Below, one piece after another: positions 1,055 to 46,290 of a stretch of 64,000 nt of DNA. Position numbers and translations under genes: made by a program. Under the pieces are notes generated by a model. That model was not told the origin of the DNA and did not search any database. It saw only the letters and a program-made list of their open reading frames with translations. Numbering within the stretch: the first letter of the stretch is position 1; each line of letters starts with the position of its first letter. The DNA lies in the IMG/VR virus record IMGVR_UViG_3300028384_000657, positions 1-64,000 of that record. One strand, given 5' to 3'. This DNA comes from a virus.

Positions 1055-1387
1055 ATGCCAAGTGAAATTTCAAAACAAATCGTTGACCAAATTTTTGGTG
1101 GCGATAGAGCAAAGGCAATTGATTCAGTAAATGATGCATTGTCTGCTGCTGCATTTGATGCGATTCAACAGCGTAAAGTTGATTTCGCACAAAGTATGGG
1201 ATTTGAATTAGATGATACTGCTCAGGATGCTGCTGATCAAATTGCAGATGAACTTCCTGACGGAACTGAAGAACCTGAAACTGTAGAAGTTGATGGTCGC
1301 AAACCCGAAGATCCTCCCGCTGATGAAGTGGAGCAACCTACTGCCGAACAAGAACCTGAGGAACAAACCGATGAGACTGATAGCTGA
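1055..1387 (+). CDS. 67: Prohead core protein, gp67-like
   Basis: 110-residue protein between portal and prohead protease, the place of T4 gene 67. Residues ~15-55 resemble the T4 gp67 helix (AKAIDSVNDALSAAAFDAIQQRK), and residues ~55-110 are a highly acidic, Pro/Glu-rich tail, as in the T4 core protein. It is expected to be part of the scaffold core and to be cut by gp21 during maturation. A CTAAATAAT element (1029-1037) and a GGAG (1045-1048) precede the ATG. It overlaps the protease gene by 17 bases. Confidence 0.75.
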   Translation: MPSEISKQIVDQIFGGDRAKAIDSVNDALSAAAFDAIQQRKVDFAQSMGFELDDTAQDAADQIADELPDGTEEPETVEVDGRKPEDPPADEVEQPTAEQEPEEQTDETDS

Positions 1388-2015
1388 AGAAATTACAAAC
1401 ATCGATTTTCTCTGCGAAGAAAAGGATGGTAAAAGAAATTACTTCATTGAAGGTATCTTCCTGCAATCGGAAATCAAAAACCGTAATGGCAGAATGTACC
1501 CTCAGAAAACTTTAGCGCGTGAAGTTGCTAAATATGACGAGAACTACATTCAAAAAGGGCGTGCCCTTGGAGAATTAGGTCATCCCGATGGTCCATCCAT
1601 CAACCTAGATCGTGTCTCACACAAGATCATTTCCCTCACAGAAGACGGAAATAACTTTGTCGGTAAGGCAAAATTACTCGACACTCCTATGGGTAAGATC
1701 GCTAAAGATCTTCTCGGAGAAGGTGTGAAACTAGGCGTTTCGTCTAGAGGCATGGGTTCTATTCGTAAAGAAGAGAACTGTAGTGTTGTTTGTGATGACT
1801 TTATGCTCGCTACTGCTGCTGATATTGTAGCAGATCCTTCTGCACCTGATGCATTTGTTGATGGAATCATGGAAGGTAAAGAGTGGGTTTGGGATAATGG
1901 CGTCTTGAAAGAATCTGCAGTAGCAGAAATCAAACAAGAAATCGATCAAGCAACCCTTATCAATCTTCAAGAGCGCAAAATTTCCGCGTTTGCAAAGTTC
2001 CTGAAGAGTTTGTAA
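1371..2015 (+). CDS. 21: Prohead core scaffold and maturation protease gp21
   Basis: 214-residue protein of the T4 gp21 serine protease family, which cleaves scaffold and capsid proteins at (L/I)xE sites before DNA packaging. Likely catalytic residues are His71 in ELGHPDGP and the serine in GVSSRGMGS (residues ~122-130). The frame is open upstream to 1290, but the start chosen is ATG 1371, which gives the usual family N-terminus (MRLIAEEI) and overlaps only the end of the gp67-like gene. Confidence 0.93.
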   Translation: MRLIAEEITNIDFLCEEKDGKRNYFIEGIFLQSEIKNRNGRMYPQKTLAREVAKYDENYIQKGRALGELGHPDGPSINLDRVSHKIISLTEDGNNFVGKAKLLDTPMGKIAKDLLGEGVKLGVSSRGMGSIRKEENCSVVCDDFMLATAADIVADPSAPDAFVDGIMEGKEWVWDNGVLKESAVAEIKQEIDQATLINLQERKISAFAKFLKSL

Positions 2016-3128: not shown

Positions 3129-4508
3129 ATGTCCTTACAACAACTCCAGGAGAAGTGGGCACCCGTTCTGAATCACGAAGCTCTGCCCGAGATCGAAGAT
3201 TCCCATAAGCGTGGCGTAGTCGCACAACTCCTTGAAAACCAAGAAAAAGCAATCACTGAAGAAGCTTCCGTTCTCAACGAAACTCTTCAAACCACTGGTT
3301 ATACTGGCGCATCGACCGCTACTGGTCCTGTTGCTGGTTTTGACCCCGTTCTGATCTCCCTGATCAGACGCTCCATGCCTCAACTGATCGCTTACGATAT
3401 CGCAGGCGTTCAACCGATGACTGGTCCTACTGGACTGATCTTCGCAATGCGTACTAACTATGGCGCAGAGCGTGATCCCGCAGCATCTGGCTACGATGAA
3501 GCATTCTTCAACGAGCCTAACGCTGGTTTCTCTGGTGGTGCAGGTTCTGCTTACGATCCTGGCGCATCCAGTTCTGCAAACAACGATGCTGAAGGCACTA
3601 ACCCTTCACTGCTTAACGATTCCCCCGCTGGAACCTATGAGCAAGCAGACGACGCAACTGGCATGACCACTGCAACTGTAGAAGGTCTGGACGATTCCTC
3701 TTCTAACACGGCATTCCGTGAGATGGGTTTCTCGATCGAGAAGGTTACTGTAACCGCTCGTGCTCGTGCGCTGAAGGCAGAATACAGCATCGAACTCGCA
3801 CAAGACCTGAAGGCGATTCATGGTCTGGATGCTGAGCAAGAGCTCGCTAACATTCTCAGCACTGAGATCCTCGCAGAAATCAACCGCGAAGTTGTTAGAA
3901 CCATTTACACCAACGCTGTAAAGGGTGCTCAGAACAACACTGCAAATGCAGGTATCTTCGACCTCGACGTTGACTCCAACGGTCGTTGGTCTGTTGAGAA
4001 GTTCAAGGGTCTCCTGTTCCAGATCGAAAGAGATGCTAACGCTATCGGTCAGCAAACTCGTAGAGGGAAGGGTAACATCCTGATCTGTTCTGCTGACGTT
4101 GCTTCTGCACTTGGCATGGCAGGCGTTCTGGATTACTCCCCTGCTCTGAACGGCAACAACGCTCTGACTGGCGTTGATGATACCTCCAGCACTCTGGTTG
4201 GTACTCTGAACGGTCGCATCAAGGTCTATGTTGATCCTTATTCTGCTAACGTTGCTGATAAGCACTACTACGTTGCAGGTTACAAGGGCACTTCTCCTTA
4301 TGACGCAGGTCTGTTCTACTGCCCTTACGTTCCTCTCCAGCAGGTTCGTGCAATCAACCCTGACACCTTCCAGCCCAAGATCGGATTCAAGACTCGCTAC
4401 GGCATGGTCTCGAACCCCTTCGCACAAGGTCTGACTCAAGGTTCTGGTGCTCTGACTGCAAACACCAACCGTTACTACAGACGTGTTCAGGTTGCTAACT
4501 TGATGTGA
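3129..4508 (+). CDS. 23: Major capsid protein gp23
   Basis: 459-residue T4-type major head protein. The N-terminus (SLQQLQEKWAPVL) and internal segments (TGPVAGFDPVL, AYDIAGVQPMTGPTGLIFAMR) are diagnostic for cyanomyovirus gp23. A candidate gp21 cleavage site is LNE at residues 49-51, in the N-terminal propeptide region. Codon use is strongly biased to C-ending codons compared with neighbours, as expected for the most highly made protein. GGAG at 3119-3122 precedes the ATG and a strong terminator follows the stop. Confidence 0.98.
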   Translation: MSLQQLQEKWAPVLNHEALPEIEDSHKRGVVAQLLENQEKAITEEASVLNETLQTTGYTGASTATGPVAGFDPVLISLIRRSMPQLIAYDIAGVQPMTGPTGLIFAMRTNYGAERDPAASGYDEAFFNEPNAGFSGGAGSAYDPGASSSANNDAEGTNPSLLNDSPAGTYEQADDATGMTTATVEGLDDSSSNTAFREMGFSIEKVTVTARARALKAEYSIELAQDLKAIHGLDAEQELANILSTEILAEINREVVRTIYTNAVKGAQNNTANAGIFDLDVDSNGRWSVEKFKGLLFQIERDANAIGQQTRRGKGNILICSADVASALGMAGVLDYSPALNGNNALTGVDDTSSTLVGTLNGRIKVYVDPYSANVADKHYYVAGYKGTSPYDAGLFYCPYVPLQQVRAINPDTFQPKIGFKTRYGMVSNPFAQGLTQGSGALTANTNRYYRRVQVANLM

Positions 4509-39767: not shown

Positions 39768-39800
39768 ACTGGCACACTACATTATGGACTCGACTTTAAC

Positions 39801-39809
39801 CTGCTATAA
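39801..39809 (+). promoter_or_regulatory. Extended -10 promoter inside the 5' end of the ligase-like frame
   Basis: TGCTATAAT, a perfect extended -10, with no good -35. Same element as at 15691 and 9725. If active, transcription starts near 39816 and the gene must start downstream, which fits the TTG at 39835. Confidence 0.55.
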
Positions 39810-39834
39810 TAACGGTATAGAGACAGAGGAATCC

Positions 39835-40758
39835 TTGCCCAACACTCACCTAGATCACCTGGAAGATCTTATCTTCACGGGTCGTGGTCAGTTGCTCAAT
39901 GCTCTTCGTGAGATCTATTCTGGTGTTCGTCTCTCTGTGAAGTGGGACGGTGCTCCTGCTATTGTTTTCGGTACTGATCCTCGTAATGGCAAATTTTTCG
40001 TGGGAACAAAGTCAGTCTTCAACAAAGTCAAAGTCAAAATCTGCTACGACCAGGAAGACATCGACAAATATTATAAGGGGAATGTTGCGGACATCCTTCG
40101 TCTATGTCTGTGCCATCTGCCTCGCCTCTCTGGCATTATCCAAGCTGATTGGATCGGGGTCGGTGGCGGCAGTGTTTACTGCCCTAATACTGTGGAGTAT
40201 CGCTTTTCCTCTAAAACTTGTCGTGATATTATCCTTGCTCCACATACTTACTATGACGAAATTTCTCCGAATGCTGTGGGGCGGGGTGGCGTTAGTCTTC
40301 CTTCTGCACTTGGCACTCAGTTCCTAGGACACGAAGAAGCACATGCTGTGCTTCGTAAGAAGGTAGGATTCAACTGGATTAAATTTATGTATCGTCTTGC
40401 CCGTTGTAAGGTGCCTAGCGAGAAGGCACGTCCTCATATTCTCAAGAATATCAACGCATTTATTCGTATTGGTAGTCTGCCTTCTATGGATGTAATCTAC
40501 TCTACGTTAGATGATAAATACAAGTGTGAGATTAATGTTACAACTTTAGAGGTGTGGCACCAAATCTTCCAACTGAAACAGCGTCTACTCGATGCTATTG
40601 TCGTTAATGGAACAGTTGATTGCTACATCGATGGACATCCCTCTCAACACGAAGGGTTTGTAACTGTTTCTGATAACCCAGTAAAACTAGTAGACCGACT
40701 GACTTTTAGTAAAGCAAACTTCAACCTTAATAAGAATTGGAAGAATGAAAAAGTTTAG
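39835..40758 (+). CDS. Ligase-like covalent nucleotidyltransferase candidate
   Basis: 307 residues from TTG 39835 (GAGG five bases before); an upstream in-frame ATG at 39784 lies across the promoter. N-terminus PNTHLDHLEDLIF. LSVKWDGAPAIVFG (KWDG at 36-39) matches motif I KxDG of DNA/RNA ligases, then GKFFVGTKSVFNK. Near the C-terminus HEGFVTV (EGFV 273-276) resembles motif IV and VKLVDRLTFSKANF resembles motif V with lysines 284 and 293. Together they suggest AMP or GMP transfer. Possibly the phage DUF6267 group, from memory. Overlaps the NMNAT-like gene. Confidence 0.6.
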   Translation: MPNTHLDHLEDLIFTGRGQLLNALREIYSGVRLSVKWDGAPAIVFGTDPRNGKFFVGTKSVFNKVKVKICYDQEDIDKYYKGNVADILRLCLCHLPRLSGIIQADWIGVGGGSVYCPNTVEYRFSSKTCRDIILAPHTYYDEISPNAVGRGGVSLPSALGTQFLGHEEAHAVLRKKVGFNWIKFMYRLARCKVPSEKARPHILKNINAFIRIGSLPSMDVIYSTLDDKYKCEINVTTLEVWHQIFQLKQRLLDAIVVNGTVDCYIDGHPSQHEGFVTVSDNPVKLVDRLTFSKANFNLNKNWKNEKV

Positions 40759-41905
40759 TGCTTTTCTAAACGAAGCCGAGAAATCATTCGCAGCAAAATC
40801 TGCAGAGAAATTAAATCTTAAGCATATTGGTTACGGTAGATATGCAGACCCTTCGGGGAATGTAACCCATATGAGTAAGGATGGAAAGCTTGTAAAATTA
40901 ACACCAGGATCAGACACAGGAGAACGTCAGCAGAATGGAGGAGAAGAAACTGCAGATGGCTCGGGTAAGGTCGATCAAGGTGCAATATCTGTTACATTTG
41001 GAAGATTTAATCCACCTACTGTTGGACATGAACGTCTCATAGCAAAAGTAGCACAAGAGGCAAAATCCAATGGAGGAGAGTATAGAATATACCCCTCAAG
41101 GTCGCAGGATCCTAAGAAGAATCCCCTCGACCCAGGCACTAAAATTAAATTCATGCGCTTGGCTTACCCTGATCATGCCAATGCGATTGTCGATAGCGAC
41201 AATATGCGTACTATTTTTGATGTTCTCACCGCCCTCGATTCTGACGGGTATAGTTCAGTTAATATTGTGGTGGGAGGCGACAGGGTTTCTGAGTTCAATT
41301 CGCTCGCAACAAAATACAACGGCAAGTTATATACATTCGATGAAATCAAAGTAACATCTGCAGGTGGACGTGATCCTGATGCTGATGGTGTGGAGGGTAT
41401 GTCTGCATCTAAGATGCGTAAGGCAGCAGTCGAAGGAGACTTTGATACATTTGATGACGGTCTTACTAAAGACTTGTCTAAGAAAGATCGAGAAGCATTA
41501 TACTTGACACTTCGTCAATCTATGCAAGTAGAAGAATCTTACGATGATTTTGCTGAAGCATCTTATGCTGTTCATGAGATTGCTCCTAAGTTAGATCCTC
41601 AAGGTCTTCGTGAAGCATACTTTGATAGTGATATGTTTCAGGTAGGATGTTTTCTTGAAAATCTTAACACAGGGATCATTGGTAAAGTCGTTAGTCGTGG
41701 TAGCAATTATGTCATCTATATTGATGAGCATGATAATGTATTTCGTTCCTGGTTGAAAGATCTGGTAGAGCGCAATGATATCAAGTATTTTAATTTCACT
41801 CCTGCTGGTGAAATGGGTACAGATAAATTAGCAAACTACATGAGAAAATTAACTCCTGGTGAGTTCATAAAGAAGATAAATAAAAAGGACAAGGTTACTG
41901 AGTAA
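40745..41905 (+). CDS. NMNAT/cytidylyltransferase-like enzyme with capsid-targeting-like N-terminus
   Basis: 386 residues. Residues 83-100 [18 protein letters not shown] carry the TxxGH (PTVGH 91-95) nucleotide-binding motif; VVGGDR 175-180 and MSASKMR 219-225 match the second (GGD) and the ISxTxxR-like motifs of nicotinamide-nucleotide/phosphopantetheine adenylyltransferases. Residues 1-11 [11 protein letters not shown] look like the T4 internal-protein targeting peptide with an LNE/A gp21 site. The C-terminal ~120 residues are unassigned. Likely makes NAD or a related dinucleotide, perhaps from within the head. Confidence 0.72.
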
Positions 41906-41906
41906 G

Positions 41907-43580
41907 ATGAACTTAAACGAATTACCTGATATGTCTGCTGCACTGAAGAAGGTTCAGCAGTTCGATGAAAAGAAAAAATTAGATCCTGTTGGCAAGGAAG
42001 ATTCCGATGTCAATAATGACGGGAAGGTAGATAGTAGTGACTCTTATCTTAAGAACCGAAGAAAAACTGTAAAGGCAGCGATTGCTAAAGAAGAGACTGA
42101 GCAAATCGATGAGATGATGCCTATCAGTATGATGAGAAATATGGGAATGAGTGGTAGTCAAATGGGTATTAAACCTGGTGGTGGTAATCCCCTTGGACTT
42201 ACTGGCGGTAAAACTGATGCTGGTGGCGGTAAAACATTTACCAATAACGCTCGTTTGTTAGCAAGAAACCCTGCTAGTTATACTAGAGGAACCGTTCCTG
42301 GTAAGTCCAAAGGTGGTAAGGTAAAAACCCGTAAGGAAGCATGGGAGTATCTCGACAATAATGTTGATGAGATTCTGGAATGGTTTGATACTGAAGGTGT
42401 AGATGTTGAGGCACTGACCGAAGAGCAACTGCAGGAACTCCTCGGCGGTATCGCTGGTGGACTCATGAACATGGGTAAGAAAGGCGGATTCATGAAGGGT
42501 GCTAGCACTGGTATTGGTGGTCTTCTTGGCAAGTCAATGGGCAACAGTCTGTTGGGATTCTCCAAGGGTGGTAAAGTCAAGAAAAAAATGAAGAAAGAAG
42601 CATTTGCATTTTCCGAAGAGGAAGAAGCATTGCTTGAAGAGCATGGTGCTGAAATCGATGAACTTACCGATGAGCAACTGGTTGACTTCTTTGTAGAAGC
42701 AATCGAAGATCTTGCTGTTGATGAAGAGGATCTGCTTGAGATCTGTGAAGAACTGGAAGCAGTAGAACTTACTGAGGCAAGTGATAAGTATTATGATTCT
42801 GCAGTCAAGGCATCCAAGGATGCTGCTAAGAGACAACGCCCCTCTCGCGTTGAGCGTATGAAGGGTGCTGCTAAGAAGGCAGCAGGTGCAGTTAAGGCAG
42901 GCGTTAAGGGTGCTGCTAAGAAAGCAATCGGTGCTGGTGCTCGTGCTGCTGGTCATGCCAAGGGTGAGTTTGAAGCGGCTCGTATTAAGTCGAAGCGTGC
43001 TTCAATGGAGAGAACTCCTAAGAAGAAAGAAGATAAGAAAGATGACGATGGTACAGGTGGTAAGTTAGACGCACTGCTGAAGGATACCAGAGGCACCTCC
43101 AGTAGCAGTTCTTCCTCTGGTGGTGGCGGGGAAAGAGACGCAGGTTCTGAAGCAAGAGAGCGTATCAAGTCTAAGAAGAAGGGTCCTGGTCTCTTGAGCA
43201 GGATTGGTGGTGCAGTTAAGAAGGGTCTGAAGAAAGCGGTTGGTAAGACTGCTCGTGCCGTATCTAGCGGTAGCGACAAACTCGCTAAGCGTATGAACGA
43301 AGACTACGATAAGATTGCACATCTGCATGAGTCTGGTTTGTTCTCTATCGAAGAGATCGAGAACGTTATCGAAGAGGGTTACAAGCCCATCGATAAAAAG
43401 AAAGAAAACAAGATGTATCGCAGAGCAGGTAACCTGAGTCGTGAAGCACTTAGTAAAGGAATGAGTACTAAGGAAGGTTCTAAGGCACAGGACAAGTCTG
43501 GTAAGATTGTAAGCGCAATCTCTCGTCAAAAAGAGAAAGAGCGTTTCGATAAAATGGTAGACCACGACGCGAGGAAATGA
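41907..43580 (+). CDS. Basic low-complexity virion-type protein with dockerin-like loop
   Basis: 557 residues, alternating acidic helices and Lys/Ala/Gly-rich stretches ([34 protein letters not shown]). Residues 34-45 [12 protein letters not shown] are a perfect EF-hand/dockerin-type calcium loop. SKGGKVK occurs near residues 134 and 218. N-terminus MNLNELPDM has an (L)NE site like targeting peptides. Probably a head-internal DNA-condensing or structural protein; this is inference from composition and neighbours. Confidence 0.62.
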
Positions 43581-44509
43581 TGTTATCTTTTAACGAACTA
43601 CAAGAAAAAAAATCCAAGATCAAGATCAATCCTAAAAAAGATGATGTCATGGAAGGTTCTTGCGGATCCTACTCTAAGGGTGGTGAAGTAAAGAAGAACC
43701 ATGGTGAGGATTGTGATTGTCAGAAATGCGAAAAGAAACGTCGCAAAGAAGATCTTGGTGATGAAAAAACAGTATCTACGGAGGAATTAGCTTATGACAG
43801 TCAGGAAAAAGTTTCAGAAGAAGGCAATCAAGAAATCGCAGAAACTGAAATTAAAAACCTCCTGACATTCGACGAACTTCAGTACGCGAAGACGTTGAAC
43901 GAAGAACAACTTCAAGAGTTCCTCAAAGGTCTCTTTGGTGGTGGTAGCAAACCTACTTCCAGCAGCAGTGGTCAAATGCCTAACCATAGTGGTCTTGCTA
44001 GTAAATTAGGTCAGCGTCGTCAGATGTTGAATAAGGCAATGGGCAAACCAGACAACAAAGTTCTTGGTTTCTCCAAGGGCGGTAAGGTCAAGAAAGAAGA
44101 AGTTGAGCAAGTTAATGAGATCCTCGGTGGTATGTCTAAACCTGCTCCTGGTGGAAAAGGTGGTGGAGGTGGTTCTACCATGTCTAAACCACCTATCTCT
44201 TCTGGAGCACCAGATTCATCTATGGCTGCATTGAAATTATCGAAAGGTGGTAAAGTTAAGAAGAAGTCGTACAAAGAATCGTTAGAAATCTTTGGAGAAA
44301 GAAAGGAACTATCAATTGCTGATCAGATGAAAATCTCTCGCGAAGCAGCAGCGAAGAGAAAACCATATCAACCTGGTGATCGCGAAAAGCAACGTGCTGC
44401 TCAAATGAGAAATGCTGCTAAGAATGCGAAGAAGGATACTAGAACTGATGCTGAAAAGATGACTGATGCAACGGGTCCAAGACCTGGATCACGTTATAGA
44501 GGTGACTGA
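43577..44509 (+). CDS. Low-complexity basic protein with SKGGKVK repeats
   Basis: 310 residues; start overlaps the previous stop (ATGATG). N-terminus [24 protein letters not shown] could bind zinc. SKGG(K/E)VKK occurs at residues 33-40, ~165-172 and ~221-228, matching the repeat in the gene before. Middle Gly/Ser/Pro-rich, end Arg/Lys/Ala-rich. Related in architecture to its upstream neighbour; likely virion-associated. Confidence 0.6.
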
Positions 44510-44545
44510 GCATATATAGGATAGACCCCTTTATAGGCAAAAATT

Positions 44546-44752
44546 ATGTTAGTATCTTTCCTTCTCCCATTTGCTAAAAAGATTGTAGCAGATGCAGTTT
44601 CCAAGATTCCTGATGATGCGGAACTTGGTGAAAAACTGATTGATATCTGTATCATGGTTCTGGAGAAAGCAGTCAAACTCACGAAGACAACTGCTGACGA
44701 TAAACTGTTAGAAGCAGTGAAGAAAGCACTGGTCACTCGTGACGGTGAATGA
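44546..44752 (+). CDS. Small helical protein of unknown function
   Basis: 68 residues: MLVSFLLPFAKKIVADAVSKIPDDAELGEKLIDICIMVLEKAVKL..., amphipathic and hydrophobic helices without a clean membrane span. I recall close relatives next to structural genes in other cyanophages; no function known. Confidence 0.7.
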   Translation: MLVSFLLPFAKKIVADAVSKIPDDAELGEKLIDICIMVLEKAVKLTKTTADDKLLEAVKKALVTRDGE

Positions 44753-44754
44753 TT

Positions 44755-44762
44755 TATAAATA
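44755..44762 (+). promoter_or_regulatory. TATAAATA late promoter box
   Basis: Exact TATAAATA, 30 bases before the Ig-like virion gene. Fits gp55-dependent late expression. Confidence 0.7.
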
Positions 44763-44792
44763 ACTAATACGGAATACAACGTCGGAGAAACA

Positions 44793-45374
44793 ATGTCTTT
44801 ATACGGAAGAGTTGACTCCACTGCTAACCAGACCGCTGTCGGTCTTACTATTGGTAACAGCGGTGGGTCTGTAACAAAAACAATCGTCTTTGTTGACGAA
44901 ACTGAAGCAGGTCTTGATGAGAACAAATCTCGTGGCATCACTGCTCCTGGTTGGTGGGCATATCACACCTATACTGATGTATCTGGTGCAACCCGTCACC
45001 GTGCAGAGCACCTGATGTTCCTCACGAATCCTGAGGCTAACGCTGATGAGACCCTGAGCGACGACACCATCGCAGCAGACGTAACCAACACGATTGCATT
45101 CACCACCAATAACACCGACAAGACTGCATCTGGTGGCGCAGCAACCTTCCTGGTCGCTGTTACCGTTACCAACTCTGGCACCGCTACCTTCCAATGGCAG
45201 CGCCGCACCAGCAGCACTGGTCGCTTCAGCAATATCTCTGGTGCAACCAGCACATCTCTGGCACTTACAGGTCTTACCACTGACGAAAACGGATACCAGT
45301 ATCGCGTTAAAGTCAACTCCGACAATGGTGCTGAAGAGGTAATCTCCGACGTAGCAACACTGACAGTTAGCTAA
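44793..45374 (+). CDS. Virion decoration protein with Ig-like domain
   Basis: 193 residues. Residues 1-95 are strand-rich (MSLYGRVDSTANQTAVGLTIGNSG...GWWAYHTYTDVSGATRHRAEHLMFLTN); residues ~115-193 form an immunoglobulin-like domain (ATFQWQRRTSSTGRFSNISGATSTSLALTGLTTDENGYQYRVKVNSDNG...ISDVATLTV). Codon bias resembles gp23. Probably a head or tail surface protein, Hoc-like in idea. CGGAG ribosome site and late box upstream. Confidence 0.8.
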   Translation: MSLYGRVDSTANQTAVGLTIGNSGGSVTKTIVFVDETEAGLDENKSRGITAPGWWAYHTYTDVSGATRHRAEHLMFLTNPEANADETLSDDTIAADVTNTIAFTTNNTDKTASGGAATFLVAVTVTNSGTATFQWQRRTSSTGRFSNISGATSTSLALTGLTTDENGYQYRVKVNSDNGAEEVISDVATLTVS

Positions 45375-45736
45375 TGAAATTTGACGAACTGAATGAGTCT
45401 AACTACGTTCTGTTCGCCATTAAACATTATGAAAACCCTCATTGCGTAACACGCGATGACTTTGATGAAGACATGAAACGCTTCAAGTATCTGAAAAGAC
45501 TCTTGAAGCGTTATCTGCGAAGAGGTCCATTAAGGATTCATTTAATTATAAATCATCTAATAATTTTGTATAATGTTTTTGGCGAAGCAGCGACTCCGCT
45601 ATTATTTTTTAAGTTTGAACAAGAGTATTGGGGTATACTAAAGACGTTCTTGGTATACTTGAATAAATACCCCATAGGAATGTTACCTGAAATAGAAATT
45701 CAGGGAGAAATCTTAGAACAACTAGAAAGGATATGA
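45374..45736 (+). CDS. Conserved virion-region protein, capsid-targeting-like N-terminus
   Basis: 120 residues: MKFDELNES..., then VTRDDFDEDMKRFKYLKRLLKRYLRRG and IHLIINHLIILYNVFGEAATPLLFFKFEQEYWGILKTFLVYLN. A compact, aromatic-rich fold common in cyanophages as I remember. LNE/S at residues 6-8 fits a gp21 site. Start overlaps the Ig-like gene stop (TAATG), end overlaps the next gene. Confidence 0.72.
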   Translation: MKFDELNESNYVLFAIKHYENPHCVTRDDFDEDMKRFKYLKRLLKRYLRRGPLRIHLIINHLIILYNVFGEAATPLLFFKFEQEYWGILKTFLVYLNKYPIGMLPEIEIQGEILEQLERI

Positions 45737-45738
45737 CC

Positions 45739-46290
45739 ATGATGACTGCTGGCACTGGTGGATTTAGCGGGAGTGCTCCTGCTACAGGTCCCAATGCGGG
45801 TTTCGATCCGATTATGAAGTTTCGCAAGAAATTAAAAAAGACCAAAGTTAAACTTGCTGGCGGCAATACGAACGAATCGTTTAGTGAATCTAAGGAAAAT
45901 CCTAAGGCACCATCTAGGTTGTTTCAATACAAGGTAAAACTCCCTGAAGTTGGTGAGACTATTGTGTATGCATCTTCTCCTGCGGAACTAGCACGAAAAC
46001 TTCGTATGGTTATCGCTCCTGGACATAGAGGAGATATTGAAATTGAAAGGGTACTGCCAGCAGCAGCAGGTAAGTTCTTTATGGACAAGCGCACAAAGCA
46101 CATGCGAAATATTATGGGCGAAGAGGCGGACGGTGCTAGAGATGCTAAAGAAATGGCAGATGAAAGAGTTCGTGCTGAAAGAAAGAGAGCAGCGATGAAG
46201 AAGCAGGAACTTCAAAAAAGATTACAGACAAAGACCAGACAGTTGAAAAAGTCTGCTGCTGCAGGTCAAGCTCCGCCAGAGGAGAATTGA
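45739..46290 (+). CDS. Virion structural protein sharing a gp23 N-terminal motif
   Basis: 183 residues; ATG 45739 chosen over 45733 because AAAGG lies eight bases before it. Residues 15-24 ATGPNAGFDP repeat the gp23 motif ATGPVAGFDP, followed by a basic FRKKLKKTK. Residues ~60-115 are a folded domain (FQYKVKLPEVGETIVYASSPAELARKLRMVI) and the end is a long Lys/Arg/Glu/Gln helix. Function unknown, probably head-associated. Confidence 0.7.
   Translation: MMTAGTGGFSGSAPATGPNAGFDPIMKFRKKLKKTKVKLAGGNTNESFSESKENPKAPSRLFQYKVKLPEVGETIVYASSPAELARKLRMVIAPGHRGDIEIERVLPAAAGKFFMDKRTKHMRNIMGEEADGARDAKEMADERVRAERKRAAMKKQELQKRLQTKTRQLKKSAAAGQAPPEEN

Follow-up and report, generated by a model that had tools for sequence, protein, structure and literature searches.

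A predicted T4-type capsid-targeting leader on the NMNAT-like protein of a cyanomyovirus, and its recurrence on unrelated phage proteins

The internal head proteins IPII and IPIII of phage T4 are small, basic cargo with a ten-residue N-terminal leader, MKTYQEFIAE (as read in the T4 record for both ipII and ipIII). Experiments on this capsid-targeting sequence (CTS) assign targeting to residues 4 and 7, and processing by the prohead protease gp21 to residues 8 and 10 (PMC9026906). The T4 Alt ADP-ribosyltransferase is likewise packed in the head; gp21 removes the Alt propeptide and the enzyme is ejected into the host (PMC9026906).

A cytidylyltransferase/NMNAT (T4-GC190) of cyanophage virions belongs to the same family as the protein analysed here. 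According to the accessible text of the respective papers, the homologue is present in virions of S-SM1 (PMC3037559), S-CREM2 (3 peptides; PMC10665884) and S-SCSM1 (PMC9602691), and was not detected in an earlier study of S-PM2 (PMC3037559); it is also reported from S-SZBM1 virions (2 peptides; PMC9146016). Carriage of the enzyme into the host has already been suggested in the accessible text of three of these papers (PMC3037559, PMC10665884, PMC9602691), in which neither a leader nor a targeting signal nor a cleavage site is named, and a literature search on cyanophages and capsid targeting, covering open-licence papers without their supplementary tables, returned no description of the leader. 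Packing of the enzyme is already known; the targeting signal is the addition of the present work. Also comparable are Namat of NARP1 and related phage enzymes which, in the accessible text of PMC12774641, restore NAD+ against NAD-depleting defences.

The NMNAT-like protein and its N-terminal leader

The source genome is a T4-like cyanomyovirus, represented by a contig of 74,151 bases. Among the genes of the window – the whole 64,000-nucleotide stretch analysed – are gp21, gp22 and gp23, which belong to the head, and, near 40 kb, the candidates for tagged proteins. The gp22 scaffold and gp23 are present, and gp21 was assigned by position, the order in Synechococcus phage Syn19 being gp20-gp21-gp22-gp23. 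The NMNAT-like protein, designated 40745 after the start of its gene, is 97% identical to that of Syn19 and 82% identical to that of S-SM1. The features referred to below are as follows.

1371..2015, + strand: gp21 prohead protease; open reading frame from 1290 with an alternative ATG at 1371; position as in Syn19
3273..3281, + strand: predicted gp21 site LNE/T in gp23, where the conserved mature region begins; compare the FLTE/A site of T4
40745..41905, + strand: NMNAT-like nucleotidyltransferase gene (T4-GC190), 386 aa; Pfam CTP_transf_like, E=3.8e-5; phrog_395 cytidyltransferase, E=6e-128; AF2 fold; S-SM1 orthologue in the virion
40745..40774, + strand: predicted capsid-targeting leader, residues 1-10 of the 40745 product, with a predicted gp21 cut at E10/A11; 4/4 T4 CTS residues, conserved in 80/80 loci
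40775..40954, + strand: post-leader module, residues 11-70, a small alpha/beta domain; HMM matches in other tagged cargo; AF2 core
40982..41524, + strand: nucleotidyltransferase domain, residues 80-260; active-site motifs, including SASKMR, intact; Foldseek NadD/NMNAT
41585..41779, + strand: C-terminal beta-rich domain, residues 281-345; AF2 strands at 303-343; kept in loci L107, L218 and L273
41907..43580, + strand: basic protein, leader proposal rejected; Glu varies in homologues; segment common to S-SCSM1_92
43577..44509, + strand: basic protein (pI 9.3) with L-x-E-K-K near its start, a possible gp21 site only; 2/4 targeting residues
45374..45736, + strand: DUF7207 protein, leader proposal rejected; Glu varies; S-CREM2 homologue gp159 absent from the virion table

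N-termini were scored for an aromatic residue at positions 4 and 7, L/I at 8 and E at 10, with offsets allowed. The 40745 product scores 4/4 (F4 and F7 at the targeting positions, L8 and E10 at the processing positions), and is the sole start to do so among 851 candidate starts on the 74-kb contig. Homologous loci, 80 in number, were fetched by peptide patterns lying outside the leader: M-K-[KS]-F-x-x-F-L-x-E is kept in all 80, and residue 9 varies, as expected from cleavage at L-x-E. Permuted versions of the motif matched no gene start within these loci; shifted versions matched a small number of starts within one acidic repeat protein. The leader is absent from the NMNATs of the jumbo phages KP13-7 and Ettore. 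In the T4-like Vibrio phage EniLVp02 (L331, 520-1407) the NMNAT has, in place of the short leader, a 120-residue N-terminal extension; this extension ends in QYLVE/A immediately ahead of the enzyme domain, and may be a longer propeptide of the gp21 type.

The arrangement resembles that of IPII and IPIII in having an N-terminal leader of ten residues, aromatic at 4 and 7, with I/L at 8 and with E10 followed by Ala, and in a protease of the same gp21 family. It differs in its cargo, here not a small basic protein but a 386-residue acidic enzyme (pI 5.6) with an extra post-leader module. The gp21 encoded at 1371 is the predicted processing enzyme, and the tripeptide LNE is common to the predicted gp21 site in gp23 and to the 40745 leader; in T4 the gp23 precursor is 65 residues longer than the mature chain.

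The AF2 model of 40745 has a mean pLDDT of 78, with a well-folded nucleotidyltransferase domain, for which the best solved Foldseek matches to the model are NadD/NMNAT, the PPAT and FAD synthetase families following close behind. The T/HxGH and SxxxxR active-site motifs are present on the nucleotidyltransferase fold; across 58 aligned homologues H95 is invariant, and T92, G94, S220, S222 and R225 are each at least 90% conserved. An NMNAT profile search of solved structures gave no match, and TIGR00482 scores 15 bits against the protein, the cut-off being 112. Fold likeness of this kind does not by itself tell NMNAT apart from related adenylyltransferases; activity on NMN is, on the model, plausible.

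We read the first ten residues of 40745 as a T4-type CTS that would be cut by gp21 after E10, with ejection of the enzyme alongside the DNA, and give this reading a probability of about 0.8. By analogy with T4, the leader would bring the enzyme into the prohead core during head assembly, gp21 would free it inside the head, and it would then enter the host with the DNA and act at once, probably on NAD or a related nucleotide. Packing into the head is well supported. Targeting to the prohead, the first step, is suggested by sequence together with virion data; cleavage of the leader and ejection into the host are proposed by analogy. The Alt enzyme of T4, likewise packed in the head, has a different chemistry.

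The leader in virion proteomes and viral contigs

Virion carriage of the enzyme is documented through the published proteomes of relatives (S-SM1, S-CREM2, S-SZBM1 and S-SCSM1), not of the source phage itself. The virion-detected NMNATs begin with MKNFSSFLTE in S-CREM2, MRFRQFIIE in S-SZBM1 and MKSFLQFLKE in S-SCSM1.

Of the 219 proteins of S-CREM2, 52 were detected in the virion. Five of the 219 open with the strict leader, where 0.03 are expected by chance at that position, and each of the five belongs to the virion set (Fisher p=6.5e-4) – an association that is significant but small. They are the SAM lyase gp6, the kinase gp14, the NMNAT gp154, and gp13 and gp136, which are unknowns. Pfam confirms the SAM lyase, and the kinase match of gp14 is sub-threshold. 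The HNH/Cas9-like virion protein gp12 has this motif too, preceded by a 15-residue extension; the name "Cas9" is the annotation of the record, and Pfam finds no family. A short form of the motif (MNFSEFNE) opens gp15, also in the virion. In S-CREM2 (L082, 3837-13331) the minus strand has, within a short distance of one another, genes for the SAM lyase, the Cas9-like protein, the kinase and small proteins, all tagged or virion-detected, in the manner of a cargo cluster.

Viral contigs were scanned with the pattern MKxFxxF[L/I]xEA, in which the constrained positions are conserved by construction. There are at least 241 matches, and 233 of the 241 listed stand at gene starts; a permuted control pattern of the same make-up, run over the entire collection, gave 23 matches, two at gene starts and one in a locus with a core gene. 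Beyond NMNAT the leader is found on at least 50 unrelated families. Those among the matches listed include DUF6267, adenylate kinase, P-loop kinase, GNAT acetyltransferase and DUF192, while for most of the families Pfam has no match; for 30 further tagged proteins Pfam gave confident names only to GNAT, adenylate kinase and DUF192. T4-like core genes accompany 66 of the 103 non-NMNAT loci among the matches listed, and across the 50 families the unconstrained positions also agree with T4 (Thr3 in 28/50 and Gln/Glu6 in 33/50 families). Many proteins of marine T4-like phages that have no relation to one another bear this one leader, which argues for a general cargo tag.

Beyond the NMNAT family, an HMM built from its residues 11-75 matches S-CREM2 gp12, S-CREM2 gp14 (two copies) and a protein of locus L102 (two copies), and in these proteins a leader-like stretch precedes each copy. 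In the AF2 model of 40745 the core of the module is folded at residues 15-51. The proteins of L107, L218 and L273 possess leader, module and C-terminal domain with no recognisable nucleotidyltransferase part. Together these data suggest a cargo frame that serves to accommodate enzymes.

The same relatives, which keep the frame and have no recognisable nucleotidyltransferase, would fit a different role: the leader might target the prohead while the enzyme serves assembly, or stays in the particle, and does not act in a new host. T4 IPIII mutants do build heads more slowly (PMC9026906). We nevertheless regard this as unlikely, for the 58 aligned homologues retain the active-site motifs, and tagged SAM lyase, kinase, adenylate kinase and acetyltransferase fit the cell better than the shell.

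A little less likely again is that a late, highly expressed enzyme adheres to virions or is carried along in their purification, and that the motif, without any role in packing, is conserved as an element of the enzyme itself, such as a helix lying against its own module. Carry-over in CsCl preparations is allowed for by the authors of the S-CREM2 and S-SCSM1 studies in the accessible text (PMC10665884, PMC9602691), and AF2 predicts a helix at residues 4-12 of 40745, with low confidence for the leader (about 54). Against this, the motif precedes at least 50 unrelated families, its strict form occurs in S-CREM2 only on virion proteins, it matches the tested T4 signal at the four functional residues and also at the free positions 3 and 6, and two jumbo-phage NMNATs manage without it. 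A targeting leader followed by delivery to the host is the reading we retain.

Neighbouring genes

The first-pass annotation had proposed capsid-targeting peptides at the start of four open reading frames, 40745, 41907, 43577 and 45374, all of which exist with the N-termini it gave. For 40745 the proposal is very probably right: the T4 residues match, the leader is conserved and homologues occur in purified virions. The argument from recurrence, that four of six neighbours start with (L)xE, has a nominal P of about 9e-4, but for a run picked after the fact; L/I-x-E falls within the first 10 residues of 20/219 S-CREM2 proteins (9%), and the short motif is consequently weak evidence.

Alignment of homologues, suggested in the annotation as a check, separates the cases. 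In 40745 the leader is kept and residue 9 is free; in 45374 conservation crosses the supposed cut. The glutamate of 41907 (score 1/4) is replaced by D, K or N in homologues, with LPDM kept, and that of 45374 (score 2/4) by D, N or K; because this residue is not conserved, both leaders are rejected. Nearly all homologues of 43577 retain L-x-E-K-K, x being variable, but the targeting aromatics at 4 and 7 are both absent (score 2/4), so that its start is not supported as a targeting leader; 41907 and 45374 likewise lack the aromatic pair. The idea that two basic proteins are packed by means of leaders is rejected for 41907 and not supported for 43577; they may reach the head by another route. S-SCSM1_92, an annotated virion protein, has a segment in common with 41907. 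Homologues of 45374 are missing from the proteins detected in virions of S-CREM2 (gp159) and S-SZBM1, and the one in S-SCSM1 has no virion label. The four proposed leaders thus comprise one clear case, one possible cleavage site (43577) and two coincidences. That all four neighbours carry leaders, loose variants of the motif sufficing, is very improbable: the L-x-E of 43577 with its free x and the short form on S-CREM2 gp15 favour it, and the loss of Glu in homologues of 41907 and 45374, the undetected 45374 homologue in the S-CREM2 virion and an S-CREM2 terminase small subunit (MAAFDELNE) that stands outside the virion table all count against it.

A short form, F-x-E-L-x-E, was considered as a second tag and rejected as unspecific, the same terminase subunit being an example. 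The repeat SKGGKVKK is present in two copies in 41907 and three in 43577.

The product of 45733-46290 carries, from about 45760, the motif GGFSGSAPATGPNAGFDP, which is close to the mature N-arm of gp23 near 3297, GYTGASTATGPVAGFDP. In each of the source contig, Syn19 and S-CREM2, only gp23 and the 45733-type protein match this motif, and homologues of the latter are found among virion proteins; judged from the sequence, mimicry of a capsid protein arm is possible. A tagged DUF192-domain protein (L134, 339-1253) also has a stretch resembling the gp23 N-arm, GFGANAADGGPVAGFDKYFF.

Just upstream of the NMNAT gene lies a DUF6267 protein (39784-40758) with an invariant KxDG and a C-terminal HEGFV, as in ligase-type nucleotidyltransferases. 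Assignment as a ligase-type enzyme was not retained: KxDG is invariant, but the Foldseek matches to DNA ligase are weak (E=0.09). DUF6267 itself carries the leader in some phages (L215, L266), and phrog_455 covers the DUF6267 and NMNAT genes as a single protein.

Implications for marine T4-like phages

The odds seem to us even that marine T4-like phages use one cargo tag, often followed by a further common module, to which enzymes of unrelated families are attached, giving a swappable, pre-made arsenal that is delivered with the DNA and can be predicted from the tag alone. If true, that arsenal would include an NAD-type enzyme, a kinase, an HNH-like nuclease, a SAM lyase that counters restriction and numerous proteins of no assigned function. 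The isolated observations of kinases, SAM lyase and NMNAT in virions of cyanophages would then come under one testable mechanism. The leader would also supply a sequence rule for predicting the head cargo of marine T4-like phages, so far the province of proteomics on a few isolates, and would mark dozens of tagged but uncharacterised families as candidate proteins of first-minute takeover or counter-defence.
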